Source of the DNA: Sporichthyaceae bacterium
GTDB taxonomy: Bacteria > Actinomycetota > Actinomycetes > Sporichthyales > Sporichthyaceae
Direction of reading: 5' to 3'
NCBI GenBank assembly: GCA_036493475.1
Contig: DASXPS010000124.1
Span: forward strand, 1-64,000
Length of the DNA stretch: 64,000 nucleotides
This document shows, one piece after another, positions 55,599 through 63,527 of the stretch. Under the pieces are notes generated by a model. The model searched no databases and had not been told where the DNA came from. It worked only from the letters and a program-made list of their open reading frames with translations. Positions within the stretch are counted from its first letter, which is position 1; each line of letters opens with the position of its first letter. The position numbers and the translations under genes were made by a program.

Positions 55599-58500
55599 TC
55601 AACGCCGCAAAGCGATTGCCCTGCGGCGCAGCCGGCCGGCCCGGCGACGAAGGACACGTAATCTGCGGGCCGGGGTGCGCAGCGCCTTGCGGAGCCGCAC
55701 CGGTGCGGATGCCTCCAGTTGCGCGACCTTCGCGCGGCTGCTCGCCAGTCGCTTCTCGGCGCGTTGTGTTTTGGCCCGGGAGGTGGCGAGTGCGGCCTCA
55801 GCCTGCGCCTGCCGCCGTTGCGCGCGCCGCCCGGCGCGCCGCTCCCAGGCGAGCTGCCCACGTAACGACTGCGTCTCGGCGACCGCCGCGGCCAACTGTT
55901 CCTCGCGGGCACCCAGGCCGCCGGGGGTATCCCACAATCTTGCTGCGGTGGCGATGTCACCGCGGGGTTCGATCATCGAGATCAGCTTCGCGGTATCGGC
56001 GTCGCCGACCACGTGCTGCAGGCCCGCCTCGGCCGCGACCAGCTCGTGCCACCGCGCCTCGGCGGCCTCGGCCAGGCCCAACGGTTCGGCCAGCCGCCCC
56101 AGTATCTGACGGATCGTCGTTCCGGCACCCCATGGGTGCGCGCAGCGGTTGACCACCACTTCACCCGCGAACAGGAACAGTGCACGCAGCGCGGCGAGTT
56201 CGGCGTCCACCCCGGTGCGGGCCCGCCATTCGTCGTCCACCGCGACCAACTCGTCGTCGGGGGTGAGGATCCAATTGCCGGGGTGCGCGTCCAACCGGTC
56301 CGGTTGCCACATCGGCACGCCGGTCCGGGGCAGCAACGGGTGTGGTTCGGCGTCGTCCGGCACCACGCTCTGCCCGACCGCGGCCGCGTCGTACCACCGA
56401 TGCAGCTGCCGGTGCAGTTCGGCCTCATCGCCGTCGTGCAGCGCGTCCAGCAGTAGGGCGTCCATCGGACGGCCGGGGATCAGCGACGAGGTTGCCTCGA
56501 GCCGCTGGGTCAACCAGTCCATGGTGTGGGTGTGCGCGTCGCCGCGGGTGCGGAACTGATCGTCGAGACCAAGCGCCCGGGTCCGTCGGAACTCGGTCAG
56601 CCGAGAGTTGTTGATCATCCAGGCCAATGCATCCTCGGTGTGCGCAGCAATCGCCTCGGATGTGCGGGCGCACACCACCAGGAAGCACGGCGCGGTGGAC
56701 AGTCCCATGCCCTCCTCGATCAGCACGCGCTGGAAGCGGCGGCCGGAGACCACAGCCTCGCTGCCCCGGAATGCTCCGTCCAGCGGGTAGCGCACGAGCT
56801 TGTCCACCACGTCCACGGCATCCGGACGGTCGTACACCGCGGCGTCGAGCACCACTCGCGGCAACTTGTAGTCCGGGTACGGGGCGAACCACCGGGTGGC
56901 GGTGAGGCCCTGCTCGGCGAACATCGCGGTCAGCCGGCGGGCGGTCCAGGTGCGCGGCCCGCGCCGCTGCAGCGGATAGTCGGCCATGCCCACCCACGGG
57001 GTGTTGTGGTGGTCCTCGTGCCGGCCGACGAGATAGCCCAATCCCAACTGGTTCTCGATGGCCACCACCAGCACGCCGCCCGGCGCCAGCGCGTCCGTGG
57101 CCGCGCTCAGCAGTCGCGCGGGACCGGCGGGGTCGTCCTTGGCGGTGTACTCCAGCAGTCCGCAGATCAGCACCAGATCCAGGTCGCGGACGTCCGCGAT
57201 GCCCTCCTCGGCGCGACCGTCGACGATCTGCACGTTGGGCAGGTCCGCGCAACGAACCCGGGCCGCGGCCGCGCGGCTGCGCACGCCCTCCACCCCCAGC
57301 ACCGACGCGCCGCTCTCGCCCATTGCCCGCGCCATCACCCCGGAACCGCAGCCCAGATCAGCGATACGCATGCCGGCGTGCAGCCGCAACGGGGCGAGCA
57401 GACCCAGCCGTTGCGGGGAGAAGTGGTAGGCCAGTTCCCAGCTCTGCCCGGCGTGCGTGGCCAACTCGTCGCAGCCCGCGCGGGTGTCGCTTGCGGCCCG
57501 CAGCACGGCCAGGACCTCGTCCTCGGCACCGTCGGCGTAGCGCACCGCGTCCGCGCCGGACTCGGTCGGCTTGCTCACGTTCGTTCCCCCGTCGTGCTTC
57601 CTCGACCCCGTGCCGAGCACGGTGGCCAGCCAGTCCCGGCTGTGCTGCGCGGTCATCATGCGCCGGCCCAGCACGAACTCTCGAGCTGACTCGGCGCGCA
57701 GTGCTGCGGTGTCCGGGTCCGCGAGGATTTCCGACAGAGCTGCGACCCAGGACGTTGGGGCGTTGTCGGTGAGACGGGCCAGGTGCTCAGTGCCTCGATA
57801 CGGTCCCACGTCGGAGGCCACCACGGGCAGGCCCAGCAGCGCGTATTCGAGCAGTTTGAGGTCGCTCTTGGCGTGGTTGAACCGTGAGCTCACCAAAGGC
57901 GCGACCGCGGCGTCCCAGCGGCCGGTGTGGCTGCGCAGCCAGGCGACAAATTCCGGGTAGTGCCGGGCGTCCCGCGGGACGGGCAGTCGCGTGATCCACT
58001 CGTCGCCGTCGAACTCGGCGGCGACACCGATCACCTCCAGGGTCACCGGCCCGCCCACCTGAGCGGCCACCTTGTCCAGCACCGGTTGCAGCAGCAACAG
58101 GTCCTCGAGGTGAGTACGGGTGCCCATGTACACCAGGCGGAAACCCTTGTGGCGGGGGGGTTTGCGCTGGTCAGGCGTGACGGTCCAGATGCGCGGGTTG
58201 AGGTGGTTGGGCACCAACACCGACCGCGCACCACACCACGGGGCCAACCGCTCCGCCAACGCGGGTGTGCTCACCAGGACCGTGTCCGCGCTGCGCAGGC
58301 GGGTGCCCAGTTCGACGGTCAATCGCAAGAAGTCCCGCGGGTCCAGGTTGGTCCGCGGTTGGGCCTCCGGATCGATCAGGTCATCGTCGATGTCCACCAC
58401 CAGCCGGGTGCCGGTGGCCCGCACCGCGGCCAATAAGGGCTCCGCGTCGGCCCCGAGCATGCGTTGCTGGACCAGCAGGACGTCCAGCCCGCGCAGCACC

Positions 58501-60419
58501 TCGTGATCGCGCAGTTCGCCCGCGAACACCTGGCGCACGGTGGCCGCGCCCGGTTCCAGTTGCGCAAAGCGGGCCAGGATGCGGATCTGCTCGCAACCCT
58601 CGTGGTGACCCTGCCGGCCGAGCATCACGTAGCCGACTCGGGGTCGCCGGGCGGCTCGGTGCGCGACTTCGGTGTAGCAGGCGCGATGTCGTTCGATGGC
58701 CACCTCGCTGGGCACGACAGCGCGCCGTGGCACCTCCGAGCGCAGCCGTTGCACCCGATCCGGGTGCAGGACCAGTTCGCGCAGCTGCTCGGCGGCCGCG
58801 TCGAGGTCGTCGGCGGGCAGCGCCAGGCCGGCGCCGAGCTCACGCACCCGGGCGGTGGCCTCACCCTCACCCAGCACCAGCAGCGGTACCCCGAGCGCCC
58901 ACCACATGCGCGCGGGCGCTGACCAGGCATCTGTGGGGTCGGCGAGCACAAATCCAAGGTCCGGGTCTATCTCGTTGAGCACCCGGTGCAGCGCGCCGGG
59001 ATTATTTGCGGTGTGCCCGATCAGCAGGTCACCGGGCGCGGCCGGGCCGACCCCCAGCGTGTGAAACTCCACCGCCGGACCGGTCCGCTCGGCCAACGTC
59101 CGCAGCCGCTCGACGACCCCCCGTGCGTCGACCGGCCACGCCAGCACGCGGGTCGGGCCGCCGCGCCGGGCCCGGCGCCGCCGCATCGCTTGCCCGGCCG
59201 GAGCCGCGGTGCCCGGGTCGAGCACCGCGACCCGCGCGTCGGCCACGGCTGCCGCGGCGTCCGGGCCGGGTGCGACCAGCAGGTCGGCGTGGACCTTGGG
59301 GCCGACCGGGAGCCGACTGATGCCGACCACGCACGGCATGCCCAGTCGATGGGCCAGGTCCACCAGCACCGGCGCCAGTGGCGCGGCGTTGTCCACGTGC
59401 ACCAGTTCCGGATTCAGGTCGACCAAGAGCACCAGCAACGCGGCAGCGTCGAGCGGACCGGTGTGCAGCGCGACGACGTCCGTGCCGTCGTCATCGATCC
59501 GGGTCAACGTCGCGCCGTCGGAGTCGCCCGCCAGCAGGTAGGAAACCTGCACATGGGTCAAGCCCCGGGCGATGCGCCGCAGTGCCTCGGCGGTGTCCGA
59601 GGGTCCGGGCAGGTACAGCCGCCGCGGCAATACCGCGGACCGCGCGGCCAGTACCGCTGCCGACCCGGTCCGATCCGGCAGGCCCTGCCGATTGGGCACC
59701 GACGGCCCGGGCACGGGTGCGTCCTCCGTGCGCAGCGCCGCCACCCGGGTGGCTACCACGGTGCGCAGTCGGTGCATCGCGGACAACCTGGCCACCGTGG
59801 CCAGTGACAGGGTGGGTTCGGCGGCGGACCGCCAGGCGTCCAGGGCGGCCCGGCTGATCAGCACCACCCCCCGGTCGACCCGGTCCACCTCGACGGTGAC
59901 CGGCCCGGCGGCCTGGCCGACCGCACGGGCGATCTCCGCCGCGCCGAGGTGCCCGCATCCTGCGAAGTCCGCGGCTCGGCTGTGCACGTCAGCGGCCACG
60001 ATGCCCACCCCGGCCGAGCCCGCCAGGATTCGACGTAGCGCGGCCAACCAGCCGGGCCCGACCTCGACGTCTGCGTCGAGCAGCACCAGATCGCCCTGGC
60101 CGGCCTGCGTGGCGGCTTCGGCCGCGCAAACGCCGTGTCCGCGGGCGTGTTGGTGACGGATGATCCGCACCCCGTCTGTCCCGAAAATTACCGCGCGTTG
60201 GCAATCTGACGTGTAGTCATCGATCACCAGCAACGACGCACTCCGGGTGTGCGCGAGCACTGAGCGCCACGCTGCCGTGGTGGCCGGCCGGCGCGCGTCG
60301 ACGATGATCGCCACGGTGAGTGCGGCATCCACCTCGGCCGTGCTGAGGTCGGTGTACGCCGGGTCGAGCGGCGCGATTGCTGCGTACTCCGGGCTCGCCG
60401 AATGCCAACCGGTGCTCAC
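55599..60419 (-). CDS. Giant multidomain GT2 / GT4-like / methyltransferase / kinase-like / coiled-coil protein
   Basis: A 1606-residue protein. Approximate layout: GT2 (1-230, with LLVIDDYTSD and LVLLDADVEVGPG), a GT4-like region (235-585, HTANNPGALHRVL), a second GT4 (590-935, VGYVMLGRQGHHEGCEQIRI, LLEYALLGLPVVASDVGPYRG), a SAM methyltransferase (about 945-1250, IADLGCGSGVMARAMG near 1020), a kinase-like segment (about 1280-1450, AHPGNWILTPDDELVAVDDEW near 1378) and a C-terminal coiled coil plus highly basic tail (about 1495-1606). The methyltransferase-kinase-coiled-coil order recalls the chain-terminating O-antigen protein WbdD. GTG start overlapping the upstream GT2 stop (GTGA). Expected to build and cap a surface polymer; that is inference. 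Confidence 0.8.
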   Translation of the reverse strand: MSTGWHSASPEYAAIAPLDPAYTDLSTAEVDAALTVAIIVDARRPATTAAWRSVLAHTRSASLLVIDDYTSDCQRAVIFGTDGVRIIRHQHARGHGVCAAEAATQAGQGDLVLLDADVEVGPGWLAALRRILAGSAGVGIVAADVHSRAADFAGCGHLGAAEIARAVGQAAGPVTVEVDRVDRGVVLISRAALDAWRSAAEPTLSLATVARLSAMHRLRTVVATRVAALRTEDAPVPGPSVPNRQGLPDRTGSAAVLAARSAVLPRRLYLPGPSDTAEALRRIARGLTHVQVSYLLAGDSDGATLTRIDDDGTDVVALHTGPLDAAALLVLLVDLNPELVHVDNAAPLAPVLVDLAHRLGMPCVVGISRLPVGPKVHADLLVAPGPDAAAAVADARVAVLDPGTAAPAGQAMRRRRARRGGPTRVLAWPVDARGVVERLRTLAERTGPAVEFHTLGVGPAAPGDLLIGHTANNPGALHRVLNEIDPDLGFVLADPTDAWSAPARMWWALGVPLLVLGEGEATARVRELGAGLALPADDLDAAAEQLRELVLHPDRVQRLRSEVPRRAVVPSEVAIERHRACYTEVAHRAARRPRVGYVMLGRQGHHEGCEQIRILARFAQLEPGAATVRQVFAGELRDHEVLRGLDVLLVQQRMLGADAEPLLAAVRATGTRLVVDIDDDLIDPEAQPRTNLDPRDFLRLTVELGTRLRSADTVLVSTPALAERLAPWCGARSVLVPNHLNPRIWTVTPDQRKPPRHKGFRLVYMGTRTHLEDLLLLQPVLDKVAAQVGGPVTLEVIGVAAEFDGDEWITRLPVPRDARHYPEFVAWLRSHTGRWDAAVAPLVSSRFNHAKSDLKLLEYALLGLPVVASDVGPYRGTEHLARLTDNAPTSWVAALSEILADPDTAALRAESAREFVLGRRMMTAQHSRDWLATVLGTGSRKHDGGTNVSKPTESGADAVRYADGAEDEVLAVLRAASDTRAGCDELATHAGQSWELAYHFSPQRLGLLAPLRLHAGMRIADLGCGSGVMARAMGESGASVLGVEGVRSRAAAARVRCADLPNVQIVDGRAEEGIADVRDLDLVLICGLLEYTAKDDPAGPARLLSAATDALAPGGVLVVAIENQLGLGYLVGRHEDHHNTPWVGMADYPLQRRGPRTWTARRLTAMFAEQGLTATRWFAPYPDYKLPRVVLDAAVYDRPDAVDVVDKLVRYPLDGAFRGSEAVVSGRRFQRVLIEEGMGLSTAPCFLVVCARTSEAIAAHTEDALAWMINNSRLTEFRRTRALGLDDQFRTRGDAHTHTMDWLTQRLEATSSLIPGRPMDALLLDALHDGDEAELHRQLHRWYDAAAVGQSVVPDDAEPHPLLPRTGVPMWQPDRLDAHPGNWILTPDDELVAVDDEWRARTGVDAELAALRALFLFAGEVVVNRCAHPWGAGTTIRQILGRLAEPLGLAEAAEARWHELVAAEAGLQHVVGDADTAKLISMIEPRGDIATAARLWDTPGGLGAREEQLAAAVAETQSLRGQLAWERRAGRRAQRRQAQAEAALATSRAKTQRAEKRLASSRAKVAQLEASAPVRLRKALRTPARRLRVLRRRAGRLRRRAIALRR

Positions 60420-61930
60420 CCTCCGGCCTCGGTGCGGTCACGGGCCGCATTCGTCGCGCGTACCCGGCGCAGCACGGCGCGCGCCACTCGGCGCGCCCGC
60501 CGGGCGGCGGCAGCCGTCGCCGGGGTCGGCTCCGAAGCAGCCTGACCGGACGTGGCCTTACCGGTTCCGGTCTTCGCAGAGGGCGTCCCCGCCTCGAGTT
60601 GTTTGACGCGTTTCAGCGCACGGGTGAGTTTGCGTTCGGCATCGACCGCGGCCCGCCGGGCAGTGCGCAGTTCCTCGACCAGCAGGCTGTTGCGGCGGAT
60701 CCGGTCCGCCGCCGCGGCGCGGTACAGCGCGAGCACGTCGGCCGGCGCGGTCCCCGGCGGGATCACCTCGGGGTCGTCCTCGGTCGGCGGGTCGAGGGTG
60801 AACAGATCGTGAATGCCGAACGCGGCGACCAACGCCTCGTAGGTCTCGCGGTGGCTGCCGAACAGTTGACTGAACGGCACCGGGTCCCGGAACAACGGCA
60901 CCAGATCGCGGTCGCTGCGTACCCGGCGGCGTTGCAGGTCCGCGCGAGTATGCGCCAGGTCGTCGATCTGCGCGAACATCGAGTCCACCGCGAAGGCCCC
61001 GGTCATCCCCACCTTGGAGACCTCCAGGGTCTCCCGGTCGTCCTCGGCCTTGCCGTGGCGCAAATCGAGGACCGAGGTGTCGTCCGCACCCTCGAAAAAT
61101 CCTCGTCGCACCGTCAACGCGATGGCCGGAGCGAAACACTGGGCCAACGTCTCGTCGGAGAAGTTTTTGTACATGCTCATCAGGGCATTGCGCTCGCAGA
61201 GGAAGCGCAGGTACCAGTCGGCCGTCTTGCCGATCGAGCCGTGGTGGCGGTGATAGACGACCGAGGTCGGCACATAGCGCACCCGGTGACCCAGCAGATT
61301 CAACCGCCAGCCGAAGTCCACGTCCTCGAAGAACATGAAGTAGCGGTCGTCGAAGCCTCCGGTGGACCGGTAGACGTCTGCGCGCACCACCATCGCCCCG
61401 CCACAGGCGAACAACATGTCGCGGGCGTCGTCCCACTGCCCCTCATCGGGCTGTCGAAAATCCCGCTGGAACCCGTTACCGGTCCAGAACAGCCCGCCGT
61501 CCACGAAGTCGATCAGCGAGCCGTCCCAGTTCAGGATCTTGCAGGCCACGCACGCGATCGTCGGGTCTGCCTCGAGCACCGCGACGGCCTCGGCCAGCCA
61601 GCGCGGGTCAGGTTTCGCGTCGTTGTTGAGGAACGCGATGTATTCGCCGGTGGCGTGCGCCACCCCGAGCGAACACCCGCCGCTGAACCCCGTATTGGTC
61701 GGCGAAGCGATCAATTCGACCTCGGGCGCGGCAGCGCGGATGCGCTCGATGCTGCCGTCCTCGGACGCGTTGTCCACGCAGAGCACCTGGACACGCTCCG
61801 CGGGCCAGTCCAACTCGCCCAGCGCGCTCAGACACGCGATGGTGTCCTCTGCGCCCTTGTAGTTGATGGTGACCACCGAGACCACCCCGGCCCGCGCTCG
61901 CGCACCGGTTCCCGCGGCTGCGGTGCTCAT
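60416..61930 (-). CDS. GT2 glycosyltransferase with coiled-coil and basic C-terminus
   Basis: A 504-residue protein. GT2 domain (about 14-290): SVVTINYKGAEDT, VLCVDNASEDGS, NTGFSGGCSLGVAHATGEYI, FLNNDAKPDP (DxD) and DDRYFMFFEDVDFGW (acceptor loop). A long C-terminal region contains a coiled coil (about 420-455, VEELRTARRAAVDAERKL) then an Ala/Arg-rich basic tail. GGGAGG precedes the ATG at 61930. Its stop overlaps the giant protein's GTG, so the two are coupled. Rhamnosyl- or galactosyl-type transfer is plausible, unknown donor. Confidence 0.9.
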   Translation of the reverse strand: MSTAAAGTGARARAGVVSVVTINYKGAEDTIACLSALGELDWPAERVQVLCVDNASEDGSIERIRAAAPEVELIASPTNTGFSGGCSLGVAHATGEYIAFLNNDAKPDPRWLAEAVAVLEADPTIACVACKILNWDGSLIDFVDGGLFWTGNGFQRDFRQPDEGQWDDARDMLFACGGAMVVRADVYRSTGGFDDRYFMFFEDVDFGWRLNLLGHRVRYVPTSVVYHRHHGSIGKTADWYLRFLCERNALMSMYKNFSDETLAQCFAPAIALTVRRGFFEGADDTSVLDLRHGKAEDDRETLEVSKVGMTGAFAVDSMFAQIDDLAHTRADLQRRRVRSDRDLVPLFRDPVPFSQLFGSHRETYEALVAAFGIHDLFTLDPPTEDDPEVIPPGTAPADVLALYRAAAADRIRRNSLLVEELRTARRAAVDAERKLTRALKRVKQLEAGTPSAKTGTGKATSGQAASEPTPATAAAARRARRVARAVLRRVRATNAARDRTEAGG

Positions 61931-62015
61931 CAAGCCCTCCCGAGTTTGCTCGCCGTCAGCCGACCTCTGCGGTGGAGACTAAACCCGTCCCGGCGGGGGA
62001 GACAGCGAGCCCGCC

Positions 62016-62717
62016 TCATCTCCTGGTCAAGGCCAGCAGGAGCGCGAATATCGCCCGCAACAGGTACAGGGAGGCCTTGATCGGGTGCTGGCTCGGTGTC
62101 CCGCCCTGCCGGGGTCGCATGCTGACGGGCAATTGCGTCACGGTGAGGTTCGCTCGCGACGCCATCACCAACGACTCCACGGTGTCGCCCAGGTATTCCA
62201 CCGGATAGCGCCGCGCGAACAGCGCAATCGCCTCGCGATCACAGGCACGGAAGCCCGACGTCACATCGGTGAGCGGACTGTGCGTAATGCGGGAGAGCGC
62301 CGAGGCGAGAATTTTCATGGCCCATCGGCGCGGGCCGTGCGCCGGGTAGTCACCCGTACCGGCGAAGCGGGCTCCGATGACGATGTCGGCCGAGTCCAGG
62401 GCGCGCAGCATGGCGGGAATCGCCGCCGGATCGTGTTGCCCGTCGGCGTCGACCTGAATGGTGACGTCGAAATCCCGTTCCCGGGCGTAGCGGTAACCCA
62501 ACCGCATGGCCCCGCCGACGCCGAGGTTGTAGGGCAGGCGAAGCACCTCGGCACCGCAGTCGCGGGCAACGCGTGCGGTCGCGTCGACCGAACCGTCGTC
62601 GACCACGACGACCTGGCTGACCTCGGGCTGCTGTCGCACCTCCCGGATCACCCGAGCGATCGATGCCTCTTCATTCCAGGCAGGGATGATGACGAGGACC
62701 CGGCCGCGGTCATCCAT
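62016..62717 (-). CDS. Polyprenyl-phosphate GT2 glycosyltransferase (DPM1-like)
   Basis: A 233-residue GT2 of the dolichol-phosphate mannosyltransferase type, which loads a sugar onto polyprenyl phosphate for export or wall synthesis. LVIIPAWNEE, VVVVDDGSVDAT, QVDADGQHDP and ARFAGTGDYP followed by DVTSGFRACDREAI are typical. A hydrophobic C-terminal segment (about 212-230) may anchor it in the membrane. The ATG at 62717 overlaps the DUF2304 stop by 8 bases; an ATG 21 bases upstream is possible. It forms a polycistronic trio with DUF2304 and GtrA. Confidence 0.92.
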   Translation of the reverse strand: MDDRGRVLVIIPAWNEEASIARVIREVRQQPEVSQVVVVDDGSVDATARVARDCGAEVLRLPYNLGVGGAMRLGYRYARERDFDVTIQVDADGQHDPAAIPAMLRALDSADIVIGARFAGTGDYPAHGPRRWAMKILASALSRITHSPLTDVTSGFRACDREAIALFARRYPVEYLGDTVESLVMASRANLTVTQLPVSMRPRQGGTPSQHPIKASLYLLRAIFALLLALTRR

Positions 62718-63054
62718 GCTCGCGTTCACCCAGGGCATGGCGCAGCAGCGCGATCTCTTCGCCGAGGGTCCTGGTCTCCCCTTCCAGCCGGCTCACTTCC
62801 CAGCTGAGATGGACGCCGAGCAGCAACAGGAACGCGACCGCAAGGAACAACGCGAGGTTGGCGCCGTCGTACACCCCGAGTCGGTGGGCGATCCGATCGA
62901 ACAATCCGGGGGCGAAACTGAACGGGGCCACGGCGATTGCGGTCACGATCCACAGCGCCGCGTACTTCTCCCGCAGGTGTGCACGGCGCAGCAGCTCGAT
63001 CACGACGCCGGCCAGCGCCAGCGCGAACAGGCCCGTGACGATATGCCAATCCAT
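62710..63054 (-). CDS. DUF2304 membrane protein
   Basis: A 114-residue protein with three membrane helices (about 5-24, 33-50, 67-88) and a C-terminal coiled-coil segment (LEGETRTLGEEIALLRHAL). The family nearly always sits beside a polyprenyl-phosphate GT2 gene. AAAGGA precedes the ATG at 63054. Coupled with the GT2 downstream. It may help the transferase at the membrane; role not established. Confidence 0.88.
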   Translation of the reverse strand: MDWHIVTGLFALALAGVVIELLRRAHLREKYAALWIVTAIAVAPFSFAPGLFDRIAHRLGVYDGANLALFLAVAFLLLLGVHLSWEVSRLEGETRTLGEEIALLRHALGEREHG

Positions 63055-63128: not shown

Positions 63129-63527
63129 TCACGCCATGACGACCCGGGACGCCACGATGTAGTTGGCCACGGCCAAGGTCACCGCGGAGATCACCTTCGC
63201 GATCCGGTAGTCGAGCCCGAGGTTCGCCAACGACTTGACGATCACGAAGTTCACCCCCACGTTGGCGGCGAGCAGGAGCAGGTACTGGCGGGCTCGCCCG
63301 CTCTCCCGACGAAGCATCACCGGGGAGAAGACCCAGAGCCGCAGCAACGCGTAGTTGACCACGGCCGAGGTGAGGTAGGCGCACACCACCGATAGCCCCA
63401 GGGGCGCGCCGGCACCCGAGTGCAGCCCGACGAGTACCCCGAAGTCGACGCCGAAGCTGGCGCCGCCGGCGATCAGGTAACGAGCGTAGGACGACCGAGT
63501 GCCGCTCCTCGTCGCGCGCGCCGCCAT
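63129..63527 (-). CDS. GtrA-family membrane protein
   Basis: A 132-residue protein with four membrane helices (about 16-36, 42-62, 80-100, 110-128) and the family's opening YLIAGGASFGVDFGVLVGL. GtrA proteins are thought to flip polyprenyl-linked sugars across the membrane, together with the preceding GT2. ATG start at 63527 and 75 bases before the DUF2304 gene. Upstream is the truncated gene at the window end on the same strand. Confidence 0.9.
   Translation of the reverse strand: MAARATRSGTRSSYARYLIAGGASFGVDFGVLVGLHSGAGAPLGLSVVCAYLTSAVVNYALLRLWVFSPVMLRRESGRARQYLLLLAANVGVNFVIVKSLANLGLDYRIAKVISAVTLAVANYIVASRVVMA

Follow-up and report, generated by a model that had tools for sequence, protein, structure and literature searches.

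An O7-type candidate chain terminator encoded together with glycosyltransferases in an actinobacterium of the Sporichthyaceae

The reading frame, its glycosyltransferase regions and its neighbours

The window, that is, the whole 64,000-nucleotide stretch of Sporichthyaceae DNA analysed here, contains on its minus strand an ORF of 1606 amino acids that is open without interruption from position 60419 to 55599. GC content by codon position is 0.77/0.52/0.86, the same pattern as in the surrounding genes, and homologues were found along the length of the ORF. The GTG start codon overlaps the stop of an upstream GT2 gene encoding 505 amino acids (60416..61933, minus strand), whose product has a C-terminal coiled coil and basic tail of its own. 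The heptad pattern of this C-terminus was matched by 0.3% of shuffles, and the upstream GT2 is a candidate partner or polymerase.

The first 936 residues contain the glycosyltransferase (GT) regions. Residues 1-250 (59670..60419, minus strand) form a GT2-like region of the GT-A type, which matched PF00535 at 17.9 bits, below the cut-off of 23.3. A DAD motif is located at residues 115-117, of which the relative L101 keeps only D117. Residues 263-590 (58650..59633, minus strand) are weakly GT-B/GT4-like (PF13439, E 0.016; 15.7 bits against a cut-off of 28.5, below threshold) and have a homologue of 38-46% identity in a genome of the same family. The GT4 domain at residues 592-936 (57612..58646, minus strand) is above the PF13692 cut-off, with a match spanning residues 762-901 (29.4 against 27 bits). 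Three glycosyltransferase regions had been proposed in the first-pass annotation; by sequence, one of them is firm and the other two, both below their Pfam cut-offs, are probable. A PDB search with a profile built from two sequences and covering the entire GT part gave no match, and among the 98 genomes searched no full-length relative of the ORF was found outside the window's own genome.

The joint between the GT part and the C-terminal module covers residues 937-950 (57570..57611, minus strand) and includes the sequence GAC GGG GGA ACG AAC GTG AGC. Codon 948, a GTG (V948), sits 6 nt after GGGGGA, a possible Shine-Dalgarno sequence, and is overlapped by a TGA of the +1 frame (GTGA). Codons 944-945 contain a run of five G. 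Removal of a single G from this run makes the first frame end in KHDGERT exactly at the GTGA, which would give two overlapping genes.

The neighbourhood in the window includes several GT2 genes, GtrA and genes for GH16, methyltransferases, a nucleotidyltransferase and an epimerase. A polyprenyl-phosphate GT-like gene (62016-62738), GtrA (63129-63527) and a DUF7657/DUF7654 membrane protein (63565 to contig position 65679; L098:565-2679) resemble a three-component extracytoplasmic glycosylation set, a three-part system adding sugars outside the membrane (PMC11127046). DUF7657 proteins are also encoded near homologous modules in Pseudomonas and Lautropia loci.

The C-terminal module: methyltransferase, kinase fold and terminal helix

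A class I SAM methyltransferase occupies residues 957-1190 (56850..57551, minus strand), and residues 1010-1174 are above the Pfam cut-offs for it. Six SAM residues named for ORF6 of Klebsiella O7 (Y28, Y66, G91, G93, E112 and Y158) share a single offset across the homologues and are all present in the window protein, where they map to Y961, Y998, G1023, G1025, E1044 and Y1091. Conservation was assessed on 76 sequences, and the catalytic and SAM residues are kept in 70-76 of them.

A PDB profile search with the module showed only methyltransferases among its best matches, and the kinase was therefore examined by fold. AlphaFold2 and fold matches place a kinase-fold domain at residues 1251-1494 (55938..56669, minus strand). 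The model of this region alone has a pLDDT of 94.5, and its N-lobe has no helix between the strands at the position of alpha-C. The catalytic loop, D1377-x-x-P-x-N1382 (56274..56291, minus strand), has its D in 75 and its N in all 76 of the homologues; in the DFG-equivalent D1395-x-E-W (56226..56237, minus strand), D and E are found in 76/76 and W in 75/76. The distances from D1377 to N1382 (5) and from N1382 to D1395 (13) are the usual kinase spacing, and E1397 and R1273 are invariant. The metal and catalytic residues, whose loss across homologues would have spoken against a kinase, are thus kept. In Foldseek searches of the PDB with the kinase region alone, the best E-value was 0.085 and no match was below 0.001; the 50 best matches are nevertheless all kinase-fold proteins, among them choline/ethanolamine kinases, FGFR, Rio2, maltose kinase and, at rank 24, AmiN. 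AmiN is the published fold match of the O7 kinase (PMC11231755). The segment HPGN...VDDEW, called kinase-like on first inspection of the sequence, lies inside this high-confidence domain.

For the whole C-terminal module the mean pLDDT was 90.3. WbdD (4azs) was Foldseek rank 1 in the PDB, with E 3.1e-9 over 578 alignment columns that included both domains. The overall superposition on 4azs was poor (rmsd 19.6), indicating that domain placement differs.

Following the kinase fold, AlphaFold2 predicts a single long helix at residues 1501-1580 (55680..55919, minus strand), a probable coiled coil. Its heptad pattern is weak (p ~0.12 by shuffling). The coiled coil proposed earlier thus stands as a long predicted helix, but one of only about 70-80 residues, and it is the weakest element of the terminator reading set out below. 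The last 34 residues (1573-1606; 55602..55703, minus strand) include 16 R/K and no D/E, and this strongly basic tail probably contacts the membrane. A hetero-coil between the helix and the C-terminus of the upstream GT2 is possible. The C-terminal order of SAM methyltransferase, kinase fold, long helix and basic tail agrees with the initial description.

Relatives, known terminators and export genes

When 84,980 genomes were scanned with an alignment, 373 relatives of the C-terminal module were recovered; 80 of these were used for locus counts. The closest, with the full module and 44-55% identity, belong to Pseudonocardiaceae, and full-module homologues from Gram-negative bacteria share 21-30% identity. 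Further relatives were found in Acidimicrobiia, Cellulomonas, Acidobacteriota, Nitrospirota and many Pseudomonadota. In the tree, the window module is placed beside Allokutzneria (support 99) in a 13-member clade with all Pseudonocardiales rows (support 100). A tblastn search with residues 950-1606 led to plasmids of Pseudomonas asturiensis and Citrobacter braakii, in which the homologue follows permease and ATPase genes; both ATPases carry the cap-reading domain Wzt_C (Pfam; both cases tested). Wzm/Wzt genes lie directly upstream on the same strand in 36 of the 80 homologous loci.

Sequence comparison assigns the module to the methyltransferase-kinase terminator family of Klebsiella O7 ORF6-N and Legionella Lcin_0519. 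The module had been described as WbdD-like. This fits its architecture and fold, with WbdD as top match, a kinase fold, invariant residues and homologues beside Wzm/Wzt, whereas by sequence it belongs with O7 ORF6-N and Lcin_0519. Membership in WbdD's own family was rejected: phmmer to 4azw gave E 0.82 and covered the methyltransferase only, and WbdD was absent from the 60 best profile matches.

In O7 ORF6, a methyltransferase is followed by a 223-residue domain recognised by no database, then by a coiled coil and, at the C-terminus, GT2s. In vitro the protein adds both phosphate and methyl to the chain end, an activity abolished by D441A, and the authors of that study regard it as different from WbdD (PMC11231755). 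By position, D1377 would correspond to D441, although indels make this placement approximate. The two proteins share the order of methyltransferase and database-invisible kinase, in the window protein probably followed by a coiled coil as in O7, the six SAM residues, the AmiN-like kinase fold and, in the deposited frame, GT modules on the terminator polypeptide. In O7 the terminator comes first, followed by a CBM-like domain, the coiled coil and the C-terminal GT2s (PMC11231755), whereas the window protein begins with its GTs, a CBM was not noticed in it and only the basic tail follows the coil. The O7 cluster is ABC-transporter-dependent, and the host of the window has no Wzt_C.

The Lcin_0519 family combines a methyltransferase with a kinase-like domain lacking helix alpha-C, has Wzm/Wzt neighbours and is likewise described as distinct from WbdD (PMC9758233). 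A coiled coil, probable in the window module, is common in this family, whose Wzm/Wzt neighbours are found in some genomes. The paper names proteobacterial orders as main holders, does not mention actinobacteria and does not describe GT fusion (PMC9758233).

WbdD of E. coli O9a shares the order of methyltransferase, kinase and C-terminal helix, which in WbdD is a coiled coil, and is the top PDB fold match, but belongs to another family by sequence and is without GT modules; its C-terminal region recruits the polymerase (PMC3482155). WsaE of Geobacillus, also Gram-positive, has a methyltransferase and two GT domains and terminates a surface glycan, but it does so by plain O-methylation and is tied to Wzm/Wzt export; neither a kinase nor a coiled coil is mentioned for it (PMC2943079). 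WbbB of Klebsiella O12 carries both its polymerase and its terminator module on a single polypeptide, with a coiled-coil ruler; it differs in having a chain-terminating GT instead of methyltransferase and kinase, and in its polymerase GTs, which are C-terminal, beyond the coil (PMC11231755). In every case described in PMC11231755, the terminating enzyme and the polymerising GTs are at opposite ends of the coil. This layout, with the coil between polymerase GTs and terminator, is absent from the window protein, in which the GTs directly precede the methyltransferase. The suggestion of a self-contained machine that polymerises and terminates goes beyond these data: the GTs are found on the side of the terminator, their polymerase role is putative, and the fusion may in fact be a pair of overlapping genes.

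Most of what is known of capping-type chain termination comes from the O antigens of Gram-negative bacteria, in which the cap is also an export signal. No Wzt_C domain was found in the host genome or in any of 11 Pseudonocardiaceae genomes carrying the module, while it was present in 5/5 other genomes tested. The terminator gene of the host is not beside Wzm/Wzt. This does not exclude family membership, because such a neighbour is frequent rather than universal: only 27% of the neighbourhoods of Lcin_0519 homologues have one of the Wzt type (PMC9758233). The only clear Wzm/Wzt pair of the host lies on another contig (C75, L100:7454-9298), without a Wzt_C match and together with CDP-alcohol phosphatidyltransferase, GT and LytR-CpsA-Psr genes. 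Because Wzt_C is absent from the host and from the 11 Pseudonocardiaceae, the cap in this clade probably does not license export in the known way. These data suggest termination without cap-gated export.

Proposed function and alternative readings

The analysis establishes family, fold, conserved active sites and the gene context of the homologues, and we consider it probable that residues ~950-1606 are a bifunctional chain terminator of the O7 ORF6-N/Lcin_0519 family, with methylphosphate-type capping and length control of a surface glycan. By analogy with O7 ORF6 and WbdD, from which substrate, methylphosphate product and ruler function are taken (PMC11231755, PMC3482155), the kinase domain would act on a surface glycan that is still growing and bound to the membrane, phosphorylating its non-reducing end, and the methyltransferase would then methylate the end phosphate. 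The blocked chain end would stop elongation. The C-terminal helix and basic tail may hold the capping domains at a fixed distance from the membrane and in this way set chain length; the GTs of residues 1-936, together with the GT2-coiled-coil protein of the overlapping gene upstream, would add sugars to the same glycan. Membrane contact is probable, and the GT part may belong to the same polypeptide. Weak single-domain fold matches of the kinase, the lack of Wzt_C in the host, the short and weak coil and the placement of the GTs count against the terminator reading.

The kinase-like domain might instead be a pseudokinase or an acceptor-binding domain in an enzyme that only methylates the chain end, like WbdD of E. 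coli O8 or WsaE of Geobacillus. The domain lacks helix alpha-C along with the glutamate of the ion pair, the classical beta-3 lysine was not identified, none of 68 homologous domains has a Pfam kinase match, and the Foldseek E-values are weak. However, 75-76 of 76 homologues retain D, N and D with the distances usual in kinases (D+5 N, N+13 D), and the O7 homologue, which is just as divergent, has a kinase activity in vitro that is lost in D441A (PMC11231755), so that we judge a pseudokinase improbable. About equally small is the chance that the module tailors another molecule, such as a glycolipid, a wall teichoic-type polymer or a secondary metabolite, rather than acting as a length-setting terminator. 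The absence of Wzt_C from the host and the 11 Pseudonocardiaceae genomes would fit such a role, as would the position of the host Wzm/Wzt pair among CDP-alcohol phosphatidyltransferase and LytR-CpsA-Psr genes, but the neighbourhood in the window is a surface-glycan cluster (several GT2, GtrA, GH16, nucleotidyltransferase, epimerase), and DUF7657 proteins are found with the module in the window as well as in O-antigen loci of Gram-negative bacteria.

Whether the GT part and the terminator form one chain is a closer matter. An uninterrupted ORF with coding GC and homologues along its length agrees with the single 1606-residue protein proposed at first, but the single polypeptide is uncertain because of the possible Shine-Dalgarno sequence and the GTG/TGA overlap at the joint, where the frame hangs on one G of the five. 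Two overlapping, translationally coupled genes, one for GT2-GT4-GT4 (residues 1 to ~946) and one for a terminator of ~659 amino acids starting at GTG 948, have only slightly less than an even chance in our estimate. This estimate includes an apparent fusion produced by one extra G, through sequencing error or recent mutation, as well as a terminator made by internal initiation. Besides the signals at the joint itself, the stand-alone GT homologue from the same family as the host stops at residue 936, the Pseudonocardiaceae terminators begin at about residue 952, and a similar overlap is seen between the genes of the upstream pair in the window. Against this, the deposited frame runs through the joint without a stop and keeps a normal GC content by codon position there, and in other lineages glycosyl- or glycerophosphotransferases are truly fused to the N-terminus of the terminator module (L060, L067, L051 and L066). 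The joint may be a matter of sequencing or assembly, a recent natural fusion or an internal initiation site. GT part and terminator are encoded together in either case, as one chain or two.

An O7/Lcin_0519-type terminator is known as such; what is new is the actinobacterial lineage without Wzt_C, the unusual place of the GTs and perhaps their presence on the same chain. In the literature searched, we found no description of a methyltransferase-kinase-coiled-coil terminator joined to GTs in actinobacteria. More tentatively, and with doubt outweighing confidence, we propose that Pseudonocardiaceae and the host kept an O7-type terminator without Wzt_C, in which capping sets length or protects the chain end without gating export, and which is joined here behind three GT regions. 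An actinobacterial terminator with intact active sites but without the cap-reading domain would uncouple length control from the export licence, two roles that usually go together, and each could be tested alone. With the O7-type assignment, a group of proteins whose kinase part is unannotated by Pfam also receives a name and a mechanism.

Several further observations were made among the relatives. Two scans of IMG/VR gave no relatives, and two 'phage' records with the methyltransferase part are unannotated faecal contigs, one with Wzm/Wzt-like genes; a viral origin was rejected. In MT836085 (human faeces; labelled Bacteriophage sp., unverified), the homologue of the methyltransferase part follows Wzm/Wzt-like genes, and the record is probably a bacterial contig. 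N-terminal fusions elsewhere include the Nitrospirales proteins L060 and L067, of 2964 and 3496 amino acids, with several GTs around the terminator module and TPR repeats in L067, and the Nitrospira proteins L051 and L066, with a CDP-glycerol glycerophosphotransferase-like domain fused ahead of it. The Pseudonocardiaceae terminators (L018-L028, L035) are mostly 1130-1245 amino acids long, with a C-terminal GT2 in those tested. Most of them adjoin a protein of ~375-490 amino acids, without a Pfam match in the two tested, which has one TM segment, a proline-rich linker and the N-terminal motif SWQDEL..LD..L..G.IS..DYR.RRD.
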